From positions 1 through 64,000 of the forward strand of contig CALUEU010000004.1 in assembly GCA_944319735.1 (NCBI GenBank): a stretch of DNA of 64,000 nt. Direction: 5' to 3'. This DNA comes from an uncultured Methanomassiliicoccus sp. (GTDB taxonomy: Archaea > Thermoplasmatota > Thermoplasmata > Methanomassiliicoccales > Methanomassiliicoccaceae). Shown here piece by piece: positions 1,516 through 10,231 of the stretch. The notes beneath the pieces are model-generated. The model made no database searches and was not told where the DNA came from. It saw only the letters and a list, made by a program, of their open reading frames with translations. Within the stretch, counting starts at the first letter, position 1; each line of letters opens with the position of its first letter. The translations under genes were made by a program, and so were the position numbers.

Positions 1516-3669
1516 ATGAAACGGATTGCTGTATATGGTAAAGGCGGTATTGGAAAATCAACAATCTCCTCTAACTTAACCGCTGCTCTTTCAGACATGG
1601 GTGTAAAGGTATTGCAGATTGGATGCGATCCAAAACACGACTCTACTAGACTTTTGTCGAACGGAGCGGGGGATACAACAGTTCTCGAATATCTGAGGGA
1701 TACATATCCTGATGAAAGAACTCTGGAAGATGTGGTCTATACTGGTTACAAAGGCTGCTTGTGTGTAGAAGCAGGAGGCCCTGAACCGGGGATAGGCTGT
1801 GCCGGGAGAGGCATAATCTCAGCCTTTGAACTCCTTCAAGATCTGAACATAAATTCAATTCCGATCGATATCACAATTTACGATGTTTTAGGAGATGTAG
1901 TCTGCGGAGGCTTTGCCGTTCCCCTGAGAGATGGTTACGCAGATACTGTGTATATTGTAACTTCCGGAGAGTTCATGTCGATATATGCTGCCAACAACAT
2001 TCTGAAAGGAACAGCAAACTACAATCCTGATAGAATCGGTGGCATAATATTCAACAGCCGCGGTGACGAGGAAGAGTATGAAAGGGTAAAGAGATTCTCC
2101 GAGGCAGTTTCAATTCCTATCGTAGCAGTATTCAAACGTTCAAAGGAATTTTTGGATGCAGAAAGATGTGGAAAAACCGTAGTGGAAGCTTATCCCGATT
2201 CTTCTCTTGTAAAATCATTCAGGGATCTGGCTGAAATTGTTCTGGAAGGCAGAAAATATGCTGCAAAATATCTTGGGGAAGCAGAGTTAGAAGAAGTGGT
2301 TTTAGGCATAGCAACATCAAAAAGAACTTCTCAAAGCAGTGCTCTGATAAGAGAGCCAAATGTGGTTTCTGAACCTAGATATTATACATCTCGCAATGTA
2401 CAGAGGAATGAAGTCTTGCACGGCTGTGCCTTTGCCGGTGCAGTTTCAATCACAACATCAATGACTTCTTTGACAACGCTGATGCATTCTCCGCGCAACT
2501 GTGCACAATTCGCTTATCAACTGGCATCCAATGCAGTAAAACGTTCATACATCTGTGAAGGCACCGCGATTCATGGTTTTTCACAGCCCAATGTCACGTG
2601 CACGAATATGGCAGAATCAACAATGATCTTTGGCGGCAATGATGAACTCAAAGCTTCTTTAAAATCTATTTTAGATGGCGGTCAGAAAAACATCGCAGTA
2701 GTGACATCTTGTCCTTCAGGTATCATCGGAGATGACGTAGAAAGTATCGTCAACGATTTGTCATTGCAGTATCCAGATGCTACCATCATTCCCTTGATTG
2801 AAGATGGAAACGTCAATGGTGATTTCATGCAAGGGGTAATTGATGCATCAATCGCATTGACTAAAGCTTTCGTAAAGACTTCGTTTGACAAGACAGATTC
2901 AGTAAACCTAATCGGAGTCAAGACAATCTCAACAAACTGTATAAAAAATTCAGATTATGTGGAAAGTATTCTGTCTAAATTAGGAATTAAAATCAACTGC
3001 AAATATCTTGGAGATGCTGATATTGAAGATCTTAAGAAGCTTACTGAAGCTAAATTCAATCTTCTACTGAACCCGGACCGCTTTTCTATGATGTTGAAAC
3101 AATTTCTTGAAGATAATTACGACATGACATTTTCCAACCACATTGCCAGACCAGGTCTGAAAGCAACTACTGAATGGATCAGGGAAATAGGAGAATGTTT
3201 TGGCAGAACGGAAGCTGCTGAAAATATCATTCAGGAGATATGTACTGAATATAAGTTGCATTTAGAATTTTTAAAGAATAATCTACAAAATAAGACTGTA
3301 TATGTGGCAAGTATGAACAGAGATATCGACTGGATCTTGGAGATGCTTGAAGGGGCAGGCATGGAGATCATAAAGGCAGTGGTTATCGATAGGCCTGATT
3401 ATACAATGGATTACGACATCAAGGCCGCTTATCCGTTTGTCGACATTATTGAAAAATATGAGATAAATGAGCTTATCAATGACATAAACACCAAGAACCC
3501 GGATATTTTAATTTCCGCCTATCCAATGGATGTAAATCCCCACATCGTGCAGAGGTATATTCCACTGGTACCTGATATCGGGCCCTTCGGGGCATTAGAA
3601 CTGGCAGATTCCTGGGTGAGTTTTATGAAGGCACCAGCTGAAGAGGGGTGGAGAAAAGATGGCAATTAA
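1516..3669 (+). CDS. NifH-NifD-type fusion protein of an unassigned nitrogenase-like enzyme
   Basis: A 717-residue fusion. Residues 1-260 are a complete NifH/BchL/CfbC-type ATPase: P-loop GKGGIGKS at 8-15, the [4Fe-4S] ligands Cys95 (GIGCAGRG) and Cys130 (DVVCGGFAVP), and Arg98, the equivalent of the ADP-ribosylated arginine. After a linker of about 35 residues comes a nitrogenase component-1 domain with HGCAFAGA (Cys304), SPRNCAQF (Cys329) and TSCPSGIIGDD (Cys399), which match the three P-cluster cysteines of NifD. I see no convincing equivalent of NifD Cys275 or His442, so a FeMo-type cofactor is unlikely. The ATG at 1516 is preferred to the TTG at 1510 because it begins the canonical MKRIAVYGKGG. 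It overlaps the next gene by 11 bases. The substrate is unknown. Cfb enzymes use separate C and D genes and no K-type partner, so this is not an ordinary cfbCD locus. Confidence 0.85.
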   Translation: MKRIAVYGKGGIGKSTISSNLTAALSDMGVKVLQIGCDPKHDSTRLLSNGAGDTTVLEYLRDTYPDERTLEDVVYTGYKGCLCVEAGGPEPGIGCAGRGIISAFELLQDLNINSIPIDITIYDVLGDVVCGGFAVPLRDGYADTVYIVTSGEFMSIYAANNILKGTANYNPDRIGGIIFNSRGDEEEYERVKRFSEAVSIPIVAVFKRSKEFLDAERCGKTVVEAYPDSSLVKSFRDLAEIVLEGRKYAAKYLGEAELEEVVLGIATSKRTSQSSALIREPNVVSEPRYYTSRNVQRNEVLHGCAFAGAVSITTSMTSLTTLMHSPRNCAQFAYQLASNAVKRSYICEGTAIHGFSQPNVTCTNMAESTMIFGGNDELKASLKSILDGGQKNIAVVTSCPSGIIGDDVESIVNDLSLQYPDATIIPLIEDGNVNGDFMQGVIDASIALTKAFVKTSFDKTDSVNLIGVKTISTNCIKNSDYVESILSKLGIKINCKYLGDADIEDLKKLTEAKFNLLLNPDRFSMMLKQFLEDNYDMTFSNHIARPGLKATTEWIREIGECFGRTEAAENIIQEICTEYKLHLEFLKNNLQNKTVYVASMNRDIDWILEMLEGAGMEIIKAVVIDRPDYTMDYDIKAAYPFVDIIEKYEINELINDINTKNPDILISAYPMDVNPHIVQRYIPLVPDIGPFGALELADSWVSFMKAPAEEGWRKDGN

Positions 3670-4906
3670 TTATGATGAACCTGAAGGTTTGATGGGTATA
3701 CTGCTTGCTTTCGAGGGTGTGAAAGATGCAGAAACCATTCTCAATGGTCCGACTGGATGCAAGTTTCATCCTTCATCTGTGTCTGAAGCAGTCTACAGGA
3801 GAAAAGGATCATTCAATCCGATGATATTTTCAGGGGAGTTTCATTTCTGCCAGCCCCGCATTCCTTGCACATATCTTGGCGGCTATGATTACATAACAGG
3901 ATCAAAGGACAGATTGAACAGGCTTTTTGATGAAGTAAACAACTCTCGCCCAAGCCTTATTGGAATAGTAAATTCTCCTGGTGCATCTCTGATCGGTGAA
4001 TCTTTGAATGTGACTGAAACATCTGTACCGGTTGTAAAAATAGAGACTCCTGTATATTCTAAATCATTGGGAGATGGGTTTCAGGAAGGAATAATCTCTA
4101 TTCTGGAAAAAATTAAACCTGGTACTGGGAAAAGGAAATACTGCATAAATCTGCTTGGAATTTCAATATGGCATTTGAACTGGGAAGACAGTCTCAACGA
4201 TCTTACTGCATTATTGAATCTGTGCGGAATTGAAGTGATAACCGCGGTGGGTGCAGGCTGGTCAATAGATGATATAAAGACCTCTGGTGAAGCTGAGCTT
4301 AATATAGTCATTCATGACGAATTTAGCGGTAAAGTCGGAAGTTGGTATGAGAAGAACTGCGGCATTCCATACATCACACCGGAAGTTCCGATAGGTTTCG
4401 ATGCTTTGGAAAACTGGCTCAAAGAAGTTTGTCATGCATTAGGGAGAGACGCTGCCCCTGCTATTGACGTTATAAAATCTAAGCGTAAGAAGGTTTTCAG
4501 GGAACTTTCGGCAATGGAAGAAAGAAAAGTCCTGCCAAAAGGCAGAACATTTTCAATTGCAGCAGACGGATCTCTTGCCTTTCCTGTTTTGAAATTCTTA
4601 TATGAATACCTTGGAATGGTACCAGTGGCTGTAAATGTGGAAGATTCGGAATGGGACAGTAAAATCAATGATTATCTGTCAGACAACGGTATCAACATTT
4701 CAAAAAATGTATTCAATACGGCCGCTGATATTTTCATAGGGGACGGCAATACGTTGTCTGCTTTGTTATTCAGGGAAGTAGTCAGAAGCGGAATAACTGT
4801 TGAATCTCCTGGAATCAGACAAATTGAGATAAGAGAAGAGCCTGTTTTAGGCCTGAATGGAACACTTCGTCTGCTTGATGGTGTATTAAATTCATTAATA
4901 AGATGA
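3659..4906 (+). CDS. NifK/NifD-type component-1 subunit, partner of the upstream fusion
   Basis: A 415-residue nitrogenase component-1 family protein, shorter than NifK (about 520). It has GPTGCKFHP (Cys34), the position of the second P-cluster cysteine, and Cys64 and Cys70 just before a TYLGGYDYITG segment that resembles the conserved NifK glycine-rich turn. Where NifD and NifK carry the third cysteine this protein reads VNSPGASLIGE, so the ligand is missing. It starts inside the end of the fusion gene, after a purine-rich GGGGTGGAG ribosome-binding site, so the two are translationally coupled. With the fusion it should form a D/K-like heterocomplex whose iron-sulfur cluster is held asymmetrically. 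The function is not known from sequence; reduction of a tetrapyrrole or a small thioether are family precedents only. Confidence 0.8.
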   Translation: MAINYDEPEGLMGILLAFEGVKDAETILNGPTGCKFHPSSVSEAVYRRKGSFNPMIFSGEFHFCQPRIPCTYLGGYDYITGSKDRLNRLFDEVNNSRPSLIGIVNSPGASLIGESLNVTETSVPVVKIETPVYSKSLGDGFQEGIISILEKIKPGTGKRKYCINLLGISIWHLNWEDSLNDLTALLNLCGIEVITAVGAGWSIDDIKTSGEAELNIVIHDEFSGKVGSWYEKNCGIPYITPEVPIGFDALENWLKEVCHALGRDAAPAIDVIKSKRKKVFRELSAMEERKVLPKGRTFSIAADGSLAFPVLKFLYEYLGMVPVAVNVEDSEWDSKINDYLSDNGINISKNVFNTAADIFIGDGNTLSALLFREVVRSGITVESPGIRQIEIREEPVLGLNGTLRLLDGVLNSLIR

Positions 4907-6724: not shown

Positions 6725-8092
6725 TTATTTTGCCTGTTCATTTTCAGTGATTTCTTCTAATGAAAGACCTTTGGTTTCTGGTATAAACTTCCAGACGAAA
6801 ATTAGCGAGAACACTCCTACAATGGCATATATGAAGAACACCCCATTAGTTCCCAGCAAACCTACAAGACCTAAAAATGTCAATGAAATTATGAAATTAG
6901 AAGCCCAGTTGGCTACTGTAGCTACACTCATCGCTTTACCTCTTATTCTGAGTGGATAAATCTCTGCTATGAGCAGCCAGAAGATTGGACCAAGTCCTAT
7001 GGCAAATGAGGCAATGTATGCCATTAGAAACACGGCTGTATAAATGCCCAGAGATGCAGCGCCGATGGTGAATACTACGCTCAGACCCAGAAGTGATAAA
7101 ATCATCCCGCTCAGACTTATCAGCAGCAGAGGGCGTCTACCAACTCTGTCTACAAGGAATATGGATATGACTGTCAGAACTACATTTACTATGCCGACAC
7201 CGACACTGGCGGCTATTGAAGCTGTAGCATTGCCGTAACCGGCAAACTCAAAAATTGTAGGGGCGAAGTAAATGACAGTGTTGATACCTGTAGCCTGCTG
7301 CAGTATTGCCAATGTTATGCCGATTATGGCTACATAACGAACGGCAGGAGACCACAACTCGCTGATTTTGGTATTCTTCTGCTCTTCATTTTCTTTTTCC
7401 ATCTGACGGATTGCATCGTCAGCTTTTTCTTTGTCGTATGAAAATTCTTCAGCTACGTGCATGGCACTGTCTACTTTTCCTTCGAATACCAACCATCTGG
7501 GGCTGGAAGGAAGAATAATCATTCCAATCAAAAGAGCAGCAGCTGGTATAACTGCAGCGAGAAACATGGCCTTCCAATTTCCAGACGGAGAGAAGTAAAG
7601 TGAGACTACATAAGCCACAAGTATTCCCACAGTGACCATCAGCTGTGTAAGGGACACCATAGCGCCTCTAATGCTCTTAGGTGCCACTTCTGAAATATAC
7701 ATGGGGCTTATGAATGAGGCAATACCTATGCCTGTCCCTATTATGAATCGGCCAGCAAAGAAGAAGTATATGTCTGGCGACAAAGTGATTACTGCAGTTC
7801 CTATTATCACCAAGGCAGCAGAACTGATTATAGACTTTCTTCTTCCCAGTCTGTCTGATAAGTATCCCCCGGAAGCTGATCCGATTATGGCTCCGACCAA
7901 AACTATGGATACTGCCCACGATCTTTCAGAAACCGTTAAAGAGAAATCCTGCTGTACGAATAATATTGCTCCAGAAATGATCCCAGTATCAAATCCAAAT
8001 AAAATTCCGCCGATGGCAGCAACTGCCGCTGCAACATATGCCAAAGGTGGAATACTAAGTCTCCTCTTAGATTTCTGGCCGCTGAATTTCAT
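6725..8092 (-). CDS. MFS sugar porter (sugar:H+ symporter family)
   Basis: A 12-helix major facilitator protein of about 455 residues carrying the classic sugar-porter signatures in order: GGYLSDRLGRRKS after helix 2, the SSPRWL motif at the start of the central loop, QQATGINTVIYFAPTIF in helix 7, DRVGRRPL after helix 8, and PETKGLSLEEI after helix 12. It probably imports a monosaccharide, inositol or a similar polyol with protons. The ATG at 8092 is preferred, but an in-frame TTG at 8116 is also possible. It follows otsB in the same direction by 10-30 bases and so looks like part of an otsA-otsB-porter operon, which suggests a link with trehalose or glucose handling. Confidence 0.88.
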   Translation of the reverse strand: MKFSGQKSKRRLSIPPLAYVAAAVAAIGGILFGFDTGIISGAILFVQQDFSLTVSERSWAVSIVLVGAIIGSASGGYLSDRLGRRKSIISSAALVIIGTAVITLSPDIYFFFAGRFIIGTGIGIASFISPMYISEVAPKSIRGAMVSLTQLMVTVGILVAYVVSLYFSPSGNWKAMFLAAVIPAAALLIGMIILPSSPRWLVFEGKVDSAMHVAEEFSYDKEKADDAIRQMEKENEEQKNTKISELWSPAVRYVAIIGITLAILQQATGINTVIYFAPTIFEFAGYGNATASIAASVGVGIVNVVLTVISIFLVDRVGRRPLLLISLSGMILSLLGLSVVFTIGAASLGIYTAVFLMAYIASFAIGLGPIFWLLIAEIYPLRIRGKAMSVATVANWASNFIISLTFLGLVGLLGTNGVFFIYAIVGVFSLIFVWKFIPETKGLSLEEITENEQAK

Positions 8093-8124
8093 GAAGCATT
8101 TATTACTCTTCAGCAAGTCTCTAA

Positions 8125-8886
8125 TTAAAGTAACGATCTTTCCTCAAGCAGTTTCTTTAAAATCAATCTTAAATCGTCTATGCATTTCAGCCTGTATGTC
8201 GCATCGGTTTCACCACTGCCTATTTTTATAGTCACAGACTTTTCTTTTAAAGCTCTGAATGCATCCTCATCAGTGATGTCATCACCTACGTAGATAGACG
8301 CTTCACACCCCGCATGATCAATAAGCATCTGGCAGGCGTCCCCTTTGTTTTTCCCTTTGGCTCTCAGCTCTATGACTTTCTTACCTTCTGTTATCGCGAA
8401 GTTGCCAGAGTTCTTTTTGACAATGTCTCTAATACTTTCTTCGTCTCCAGCATCTGCGTTTCTGTAGTGTATGCTTACAGAATAGACTTTTTGCTCAATC
8501 TGGATGCCCCTATAATTCTTTAATAAGCATTCAATATCATTTTTCAATTTTGAGATATCATCACAGTCTATTTTTTCTTCAGCAGAAAAAGGACATTCTA
8601 TGCCGTGGCTGCCTATCAGATTTTTGAAATGAACTTTGTTTTTCAGATCTTCTAAGCTTCTGCCGCTGACTATCCAGATTTCCGTCGAGGGAAGTTTTTC
8701 CAGATCAGTCAGAATATTCTCTATTTCCTTATCGATCTCTGCTTCTTCTGGTGTTGGCACTATGGGAGAAATAGTGCCGTCAAAATCAAGCATTAAAAGA
8801 AGCCGAGGCGATTTTGCTAATGCACTTAGTTCAGTACTCAGATTCCCATTGTCTGAAGAACTCGTCCAGCCACCAGAAGATGTCAT
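8125..8886 (-). CDS. otsB: Trehalose-6-phosphate phosphatase
   Basis: HAD-superfamily phosphatase of 253 residues. It has motif I DFDGTIS near residue 35, motif II VSGRS, the conserved lysine region ELRAKGKNKGDA, and motif IV YVGDDITDEDAF. It removes phosphate from trehalose-6-phosphate to give trehalose, a compatible solute. Its ATG lies inside the last 19 codons of otsA, in another frame, giving a 56-base overlap. This suggests tight translational coupling, and no later in-frame ATG precedes the catalytic DFDGT apart from the methionine next to it. Confidence 0.9.
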   Translation of the reverse strand: MTSSGGWTSSSDNGNLSTELSALAKSPRLLLMLDFDGTISPIVPTPEEAEIDKEIENILTDLEKLPSTEIWIVSGRSLEDLKNKVHFKNLIGSHGIECPFSAEEKIDCDDISKLKNDIECLLKNYRGIQIEQKVYSVSIHYRNADAGDEESIRDIVKKNSGNFAITEGKKVIELRAKGKNKGDACQMLIDHAGCEASIYVGDDITDEDAFRALKEKSVTIKIGSGETDATYRLKCIDDLRLILKKLLEERSLL

Positions 8887-10231
8887 GATCCTTAACTTCC
8901 TTCCTAAGTTTGCTGCAGTGGTTTGCTTTTTCTTTCTGTTTCATTCTCAGAGCTTTTTGAATAGCTTTTGCCATTGATTCGAGATCATACGGATTTACTA
9001 CAATGGCATCTTTCATTCCTTCACTGGCTCCTGCGAACTCACTGAGAATTAAAACTCCATTTTCGTTTACAGCCACATATTCTTTGGCTACGAGATTCAT
9101 TCCGTCAATAACCGGTGTAACCATGGCAACATCTGCTATCCTGTAAAGCATCAGCAGTTTGTCCTCGTCAATTTTCCTGTTGATGTAGATGATTGGAGTC
9201 CACGATGGAGTCTGAAATCTGCCATTTATTCTGCCTACACTTTCCTCTACTTTCCTTTTCATTTCTTTATATTCATTTATATTGACTCTAGTGGGAGATG
9301 CTATCTGTATGAACGAAACTTTTTCCCTTGCCCTGGGGCTGGATTCAAGATATCTTTCAAAGGCAAGAAATCTGTTTAAGATGCCTTTGGTGTAGTCCAG
9401 TCTGTCTACGCCTAAAATTATGCGTTCAGCATTGATCGACTTTCTTGTTGCCTCAGCACCTTTGATTATACTTTGCATGTTGCCGCTTTTAGCATATGTT
9501 TCATAATCAATCCCGATTGGGATCGCTGCGATCTTTGTTTTTCTGCCGTTGTAGGTAATCACATTGTCTTTGGCTTCAGCTTGAGGAAATTCCCTGCATA
9601 CAGTTGCAATGAAGTTATCTGCGTGAGCTTTTGTGTGAAATCCGAGCATATCCGCGCTCAGCAGACCTTTTAGAAGATCGCTTCTCCAAGGTATGCAGGA
9701 AAAGGTCTCAGCTGCTGGAAAGGGGATATGCCAAAACAATGCTATGGCAGCTTCCGGAACTTTATTTCTCAGCATGTCAGGAACTAATGAAAAATGTACA
9801 TCCTGAATGAACACCCTGCCGCCTTTTTCCAGCTCTTCTGCTGCAGCCTCGGCAAATTTCATATTCACGCTTTTGTAAGTTTCCCAGTAGTTTTTTTTGA
9901 ACTGGGCATTTTCTTGAAATAAGTGACACACTGGCCAGATGACCCTGTTGCTGAATCCAAGATAATAATCGTTAACCTCTTTCTGAGTAAGCCAGATCCT
10001 TCGGAGAGTGTACTTCGGATCCTCCGGAGGAACTCTGACGCATCCTTTAGAATCGCTGCAGTCTTTGTCGGCGTCTCCGCTTCCCCAGGCAATCCAGGTA
10101 CCTTTTGCAGCCTGCATCACTGGATCTATGGCAGCGACAACTCCTCCAGTTGGAACTGAACAATCTATATGCTCTTCATTGTACTCATGGACATATGGTT
10201 CTCTGTTGGAGATAACGATTAATCTATCCAC
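8831..10231 (-). CDS. otsA: Trehalose-6-phosphate synthase
   Basis: Family 20 glycosyltransferase of 466 residues that joins UDP-glucose (or another NDP-glucose) to glucose-6-phosphate. Recognisable blocks are the N-terminal SNREPY and PTGGVVAAI loop, FWHIPFPAAETF, LLSADMLGFHT, the donor-site LGVDRLDYTKGILNRF, VTPVIDGMNLVAKEYVA and LSEFAGASE. The usual QDYHL reads QDVHFSL, a mild variation. It heads the otsA-otsB-porter group; trehalose is a known archaeal osmolyte and stress protectant. The intergenic stretch to the deoxyhypusine synthase gene is short (about 64 bases). Confidence 0.93.
   Translation of the reverse strand: MDRLIVISNREPYVHEYNEEHIDCSVPTGGVVAAIDPVMQAAKGTWIAWGSGDADKDCSDSKGCVRVPPEDPKYTLRRIWLTQKEVNDYYLGFSNRVIWPVCHLFQENAQFKKNYWETYKSVNMKFAEAAAEELEKGGRVFIQDVHFSLVPDMLRNKVPEAAIALFWHIPFPAAETFSCIPWRSDLLKGLLSADMLGFHTKAHADNFIATVCREFPQAEAKDNVITYNGRKTKIAAIPIGIDYETYAKSGNMQSIIKGAEATRKSINAERIILGVDRLDYTKGILNRFLAFERYLESSPRAREKVSFIQIASPTRVNINEYKEMKRKVEESVGRINGRFQTPSWTPIIYINRKIDEDKLLMLYRIADVAMVTPVIDGMNLVAKEYVAVNENGVLILSEFAGASEGMKDAIVVNPYDLESMAKAIQKALRMKQKEKANHCSKLRKEVKDHDIFWWLDEFFRQWESEY

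Follow-up and report, generated by a model that had tools for sequence, protein, structure and literature searches.

The stretch of DNA analysed here, called the window, comprises the first 64,000 nucleotides of a contig from an uncultured Methanomassiliicoccus sp. Close to its left end lie two overlapping genes for a nitrogenase-like system, which we called HD-K: a NifH-like reductase (H) joined in one frame to a NifD/NifE-like component-1 domain (D), followed by a second component-1 subunit (K). The features are as follows.

1516..3669, + strand: HD fusion protein, 717 residues, with Fer4_NifH and Oxidored_nitro (Pfam) in a single ORF
1516..2301, + strand: H domain (Fe-protein/NifH-like), residues 1-262, from Pfam, conserved motifs and Foldseek
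1537-1563, + strand: P-loop of the H domain, G8-T16
1762-1764 and 1798-1800, + strand: H-domain cluster cysteines C83 and C95, from alignment
2302..2424, + strand: linker, residues 263-303, with disorder predicted from ~266
2425..3666, + strand: D domain (NifD/NifE-like), residues 304-717, from Pfam and alignment
2425-2427, 2500-2502 and 2710-2712, + strand: D-domain cluster cysteines C304, C329 and C399, from alignment
3659..4906, + strand: K-like component-1 subunit, 415 residues, from Pfam (Oxidored_nitro) and Foldseek
3758-3760, + strand: C34, the single cluster cysteine of K, from alignment with NifK, NifN and BchB

Genes were called as simple ORF picks, and the HD ORF has two possible start positions (1510/1516-3669, + strand). 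In Pfam, Fer4_NifH covers residues 3-262 of HD (E 7e-86) and Oxidored_nitro residues 304-702 (E 5e-58), with a second Oxidored_nitro match in the K ORF at 3659-4906 (E 1e-42). The first-pass annotation had described H and D parts in one frame and an 11-base overlap with K. Both descriptions hold, as the Pfam domains, the P-loop, C83/C95 and the three D cysteines are all present and the two ORFs share bases 3659-3669. The window starts at base 1 of the contig, so that the left flank of HD is cut by the assembly; the gene just upstream of the fusion, for a VWA-domain protein (2-1363), is likewise cut short where the contig begins. On the minus strand, positions 6725-10231 code for a sugar-type MFS transporter, then trehalose-phosphate phosphatase-like and synthase-like proteins, assigned by eye.

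The systematic survey covered the 147 genomes of the window's order, Methanomassiliicoccales, many of the surveyed genomes being MAGs. The fusion, which the first-pass annotation had proposed to look for in this order, is present in 89 of them, often in several copies; close named matches include records of Methanomethylophilaceae and Methanomassiliicoccaceae. A sequencing error or a chance fusion is ruled out because the same HD-K pair recurs across dozens of genomes. In a phylum sample of 390 evenly drawn genomes, matches with E <1e-80 were confined to the window's order. A sample scan of GTDB genomes gave HD-K outside the order, among the matches listed, in Methanococcoides vulcani, Methanosarcina sp. 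KYL-1 and Methanoregula, and, for bacteria, in Clostridium tetanomorphum, Sporobacter, Treponema, Eubacteriaceae, Peptococcaceae, Lachnospiraceae and others. When a collection of plasmids was screened for further fusions, the matches listed were separate NifH and NifD/E, Bch and uncharacterised component-1 genes. Nine fused genes of the order (e.g. L071, L082 and L093) contain an in-frame TAG, which in L093 is at residue 273, where H meets D; TGA occurs in two or three, one of them as the terminal stop, and TAA in none. The in-frame TAGs fit amber (pyrrolysine-type) readthrough in this order.

Cluster ligands were analysed by alignment, with Rhizobium NifDKEN and Sulfitobacter BchB as references. 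D keeps all three alpha-side P-cluster cysteines of NifD; across 45 fused homologues, C304, C329 and C399 are fully or almost fully conserved. K has a cysteine at one of the three P-cluster positions of NifK: C34, invariant in 43/43 homologues, corresponds to C95 of NifK, C44 of NifN and Asp36 of BchB. Its first P-cluster position is Glu/Asp and its third Pro, while C66 and C70 lie elsewhere in the alignment. The first reading of K as devoid of the third cysteine was therefore right for that position but incomplete, since the first is not Cys either, and the missing ligand is no oddity: three cysteines from D plus one from K make the normal NifEN/BchYZ pattern, not the complete six-cysteine P-cluster set of nitrogenase. 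By sequence position, this is the DPOR/COR-type 3+1 ligand set for a single [4Fe-4S] cluster shared across N/B-type subunits. As the pattern is that of NifEN, DPOR and COR, we predict that each D/K pair holds a single [4Fe-4S] cluster and that FeMo-co is absent. At the FeMo-co ligand positions C275 and H442 of NifD, the window's D has Asn and Ile, and among 26 aligned sequences these positions hold Cys in one and His in none, respectively. The K model (pLDDT 88) has BchB of DPOR as its best Foldseek match (TM 0.81), and in the model of the fusion the H domain is confidently folded as an Fe protein, matching nitrogenase Fe proteins with TM 0.84-0.90 over the target.

Phylogenetic trees were unrooted, with Mar sequences not knowingly included and COR sequences not included. 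The H domains of the fused proteins form one clade together with three split relatives (support 100/99), one of which has a TAG at the H/D junction. NifH and other group-IV sets are outside this fused H clade, and CfbC forms a clade of its own (100/99). D and K are each monophyletic (support 92 and 99*, respectively). D groups nearest NifD/NifE among the named types, and the fused family lies outside the BchL/N/B clade, the Bch rows being long branches. The distinct clade envisaged at first is thus recovered: in these trees the fused family stands outside the Nif, Cfb and Bch groups. With H and D in one ORF, K next to it and monophyly, the window's pair belongs to the HD-fused family (archaeal cluster 443). 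Near the D and K clades in these unrooted trees are HDK sets without the fusion, from a Bacillota MAG, Methanoregulaceae and Negativicutes, so that the fusion was probably accompanied or preceded by an unfused ancestor.

The window's genome contains a complete, separate cfbABCDE operon elsewhere (L038), in which CfbA, CfbD and CfbE score above the NCBIfam cut-offs and CfbB and CfbC score below theirs but are best matches. A search of the same genome with the fusion as query returned only the fusion itself, its K and CfbC, and no NifDK/EN; this query does recover nif-like sets in genomes G007 and G014. As the first-pass annotation had argued, HD-K is neither a nitrogen-fixing enzyme nor an ordinary CfbCD. 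N2 fixation is excluded by the missing FeMo-co ligands (Asn/Ile), the incomplete P-cluster set (three cysteines in D, one in K), the clade and the absence of a NifDK/EN match in the genome, and CfbCD identity by the separate clade and the genome's own cfbABCDE. An identity with MAR is rejected on the D residues at the C275/H442 positions, the genome content and the clade, in trees in which Mar was not knowingly present.

Several known systems resemble HD-K in part. CfbCD is likewise a nitrogenase-like tetrapyrrole reductase of methanogens, and among NCBIfam models the H domain scores best with CfbC, below cut-off; in contrast to HD-K, however, its chains are separate, it has D only, without K, and it belongs to another clade. 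In BchLNB and BchXYZ, an ATP-driven Fe protein feeds an N/B heterotetramer with one [4Fe-4S] cluster from 3+1 ligands, and the K fold is closest to BchB, whereas in HD-K H is fused to D, the fourth ligand is Cys rather than the Asp of BchB, and chlorophyll pathway genes were not seen in the neighbourhoods. NifEN shares the D/K pair with 3+1 cluster cysteines, but HD-K has no NifB or NifDK context, its FeMo-co-type Cys is not conserved and its H is fused. Finally, HmuS, a haem de-chelatase of the CobN family, is a CobN homologue found beside FecCD-type transport in anaerobes; it differs in having no nitrogenase-like partner, and the HD-K neighbours are corrinoid genes.

The right flank of the window's HD-K is unrelated, none of the cobamide neighbours of its relatives is found within the contig, and CobN was not found in this genome in the survey of 147 genomes. 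The earlier statement that no biosynthesis or substrate gene is attached on the right is thus correct for this contig but does not extend to the relatives, which have a strong cobamide neighbourhood that includes BtuCDF-type transporters. We therefore read the function from relatives of 46-55% identity. In this nearest subfamily, one locus (L075) has the order HD-K-CbiA-BtuF-like SBP-FecCD-ATPase, two (L203 and L204) have CobN just upstream of HD, and three genomes (G039, G319 and G417) encode CbiZ 2.3-2.9 kb from the fusion. Methanomassiliicoccaceae relatives (L035-L037) have SBP-FecCD-ATPase-CbiZ-ChlI/ChlD-HD-K with CobN nearby. CbiZ was confirmed by Pfam in L101.

More distant members have similar neighbours. 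The order in M. vulcani is ChlD-SBP-FecCD-ATPase-HD-K-CbiK-CobN; its CobN consists of two adjacent ORFs directly after HD-K-CbiK (L119:10677-14180) and may be read through, or broken. A Treponema MAG has FecCD-ATPase-HD-K-CobU-CbiR-CobT-CobS. Its CbiR and CobT pass the NCBIfam cut-offs, whereas its CobU and CobS score below theirs but are unambiguous best matches. In Akkermansia, CbiR is the phosphodiesterase that remodels cobamides (PMC7733943). In a Clostridiales genome, the genes just upstream of HD-K encode a DUF4430 protein and an S-layer protein that weakly matches a prenyltransferase toroid; we infer that they are transcobalamin-like. The unfused sister HDK of Negativicutes is found beside CobN, FecCD, CbiK, CobO and a TonB receptor. 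Linkage of HD-K to corrinoid genes is thus conserved in independent lineages, but not at the window's own locus. CbiR-like TIM barrels encoded beside the M. vulcani and Sporobacter HD-K and near a Sporomusa unfused set resemble each other at ~30%; NCBIfam does not identify them as CbiR (E 0.14, E 0.027 and no match, respectively), and they were excluded from the neighbourhood evidence.

We compared 12 fusion loci from ten genomes with random 20-kb stretches of the same genomes. At least one FecCD, SBP, CobN, ChlID, CbiZ or CbiA gene lies within ~9 kb of 10/12 fusion loci, against 2/20 random stretches (p 6e-5). The strict corrinoid and chelatase genes alone gave a weak difference (4/12 vs 1/20, p 0.05). 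Across the 147 genomes, the fusion and CobN occur together in 79, the fusion only in 10, CobN only in five and neither in 53 (Fisher p 9e-24, uncorrected for shared ancestry). Genome-level co-occurrence with CbiZ is uninformative, as CbiZ is present in 123/147 genomes; adjacency alone was therefore counted, and CbiZ lies <=6.5 kb from the fusion in 11 genomes, against ~2 expected from rough counts.

These neighbourhoods suggest, with a probability that we put at about 0.5, that HD-K represents a new clade of ATP-dependent reductases of the dark-operative type, with a corrinoid as substrate in salvage or remodelling. Its substrate would be an imported or salvaged cobamide or corrinoid, since the relatives adjoin corrinoid genes. 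An (HD)2K2 complex would hold [4Fe-4S] clusters only, and its two H domains would pair as an Fe-protein dimer, possibly serving either half in turn. This dimer would dock, hydrolyse ATP and deliver electrons one at a time; each would leave the H cluster, cross the D/K cluster and reach a tetrapyrrole bound in the cavity that DPOR uses for protochlorophyllide. The most likely job would be low-potential reduction of the corrinoid from Co(II) to Co(I), after which it could be adenosylated, remodelled (CbiZ, CbiR) or, with CobN, demetallated or re-metallated. In the aerobic pathway, cobalt is reduced to Co(I) by CobR before adenosylation, and free flavin has been proposed for CobA (PMC7242693). 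For anaerobes with cobamide salvage, a reductase driven by ATP would be well suited.

Several observations count against corrinoid reduction: the window's contig has no cobamide neighbours and its genome no CobN, four fused loci (L073, L076, L077 and L209) have housekeeping neighbours only, and the best NCBIfam model of H is CfbC, below cut-off. In addition, CobN is not normally required for cobalt reduction. A partnership of HD-K with CobN leaves room for reductive removal or exchange of cobalt. In an unlikely extension of this idea, ATP hydrolysis by the tethered Fe protein would power the reduction of a corrinoid, allowing CobN/ChlID to take out or swap the cobalt of salvaged B12; if true, enzymatic demetallation of cobamides would be a previously unknown activity.

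The frequent presence of CobN, in 79 of the 89 fusion genomes, and of CobN, ChlID and FecCD genes adjoining HD-K (L035-L037, L119 and L124) could also be explained if HD-K served metal harvest. It would then supply low-potential electrons to a tetrapyrrole while CobN/ChlID run in reverse, as HmuS does on haem, taking iron, cobalt or another metal from imported haem, a chlorophyll product or a corrinoid. HmuS is indeed a reductive de-chelatase of the CobN family, and its authors call the role of the archaeal CobN homologues unclear (PMC12583661). However, ten fusion genomes, the window's among them, have no CobN, the specific pathway neighbours (CbiA, CbiZ, CbiR, CobU/T/S, CbiF and CobO) are corrinoid rather than haem genes, and HmuS uses NADH without a nitrogenase-like partner. 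We regard metal harvest as a tentative alternative. By analogy with CfbCD and chlorophyllide reductase, HD-K might instead reduce a macrocycle double bond in a new modified tetrapyrrole pathway: its ligand pattern and fold resemble DPOR/COR, and the CbiA-HD-K arrangement mirrors cfbB-cfbCD within the same order. This appears quite improbable, as no constant methyltransferase or cyclase set adjoins HD-K and the CbiA of L075 scores as CobB (426, cut-off 254), not as CfbB (352, cut-off 560). Least probable of all is a role unrelated to tetrapyrroles, in which the substrate of HD-K would be some other small molecule, for example a thioether as for MAR or another sulphur compound, and its neighbours would be coincidental, as contexts such as cysK-cysE-cysS (L209) or drug-type ABC exporters (L034 and L078) might suggest; MAR uses nitrogenase metalloclusters (PMC12552129), for which HD-K lacks the FeMo-co ligands, and the neighbourhood enrichment is seen again in unrelated lineages.

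The fusion itself is already published. Borrel and colleagues described a 'fused nifH/nifE' of Ca. M. intestinalis in 2014 (PMC4153887), and a 2024 mSystems survey reported 'cluster 443', an archaeal NifH-NifD/E fusion, for Methanomassiliicoccales, and both composite and split forms for Methanosarcinales and Methanomicrobiales (PMC11237513); both concern the same fusion and give no function, ligand analysis, bacterial members or gene context. In a literature search with subscription papers mostly outside its scope, we found no function for the fusion, no bacterial members and no corrinoid or CobN link, nor any paper joining nitrogenase-like enzymes, CobN and TonB. If corrinoid reduction is correct, HD-K would be the first nitrogenase-like enzyme linked to vitamin B12 metabolism and would give the first lead on the role of the many CobN homologues of methanogenic archaea. 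This reading is testable because two named genomes, C. tetanomorphum DSM 4474 and Methanococcoides vulcani, encode HD-K.

The covalent tether, initially considered mechanistically odd, is less so than claimed. Model confidence in the linker is low (pLDDT <50 at 270-287 and 292-302), and as residues ~266-303 are predicted to be disordered, H could still dock and release. The inter-domain spacing of relatives is 13-49 residues in most and ~100 in one. About half of the fused homologues, the window's not among them, have a linker CxxC at ~280-283 (cysteines three residues apart), a possible extra metal or cluster site. A Myxococcota MAG (L130:2627-7182) encodes a 1085-residue H-H-D chain followed by K, its two H domains being sisters; this homologue would provide the full Fe-protein complement. 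HD and H-H-D proteins suggest an Fe protein able to work while tethered, and they may offer a natural test of the need for dissociation in the nitrogenase cycle. At three loci (L101, L103 and L198), additional D-K pairs that lack H adjoin complete HD-K pairs, an arrangement in which a single tethered H might serve two component-1 partners.
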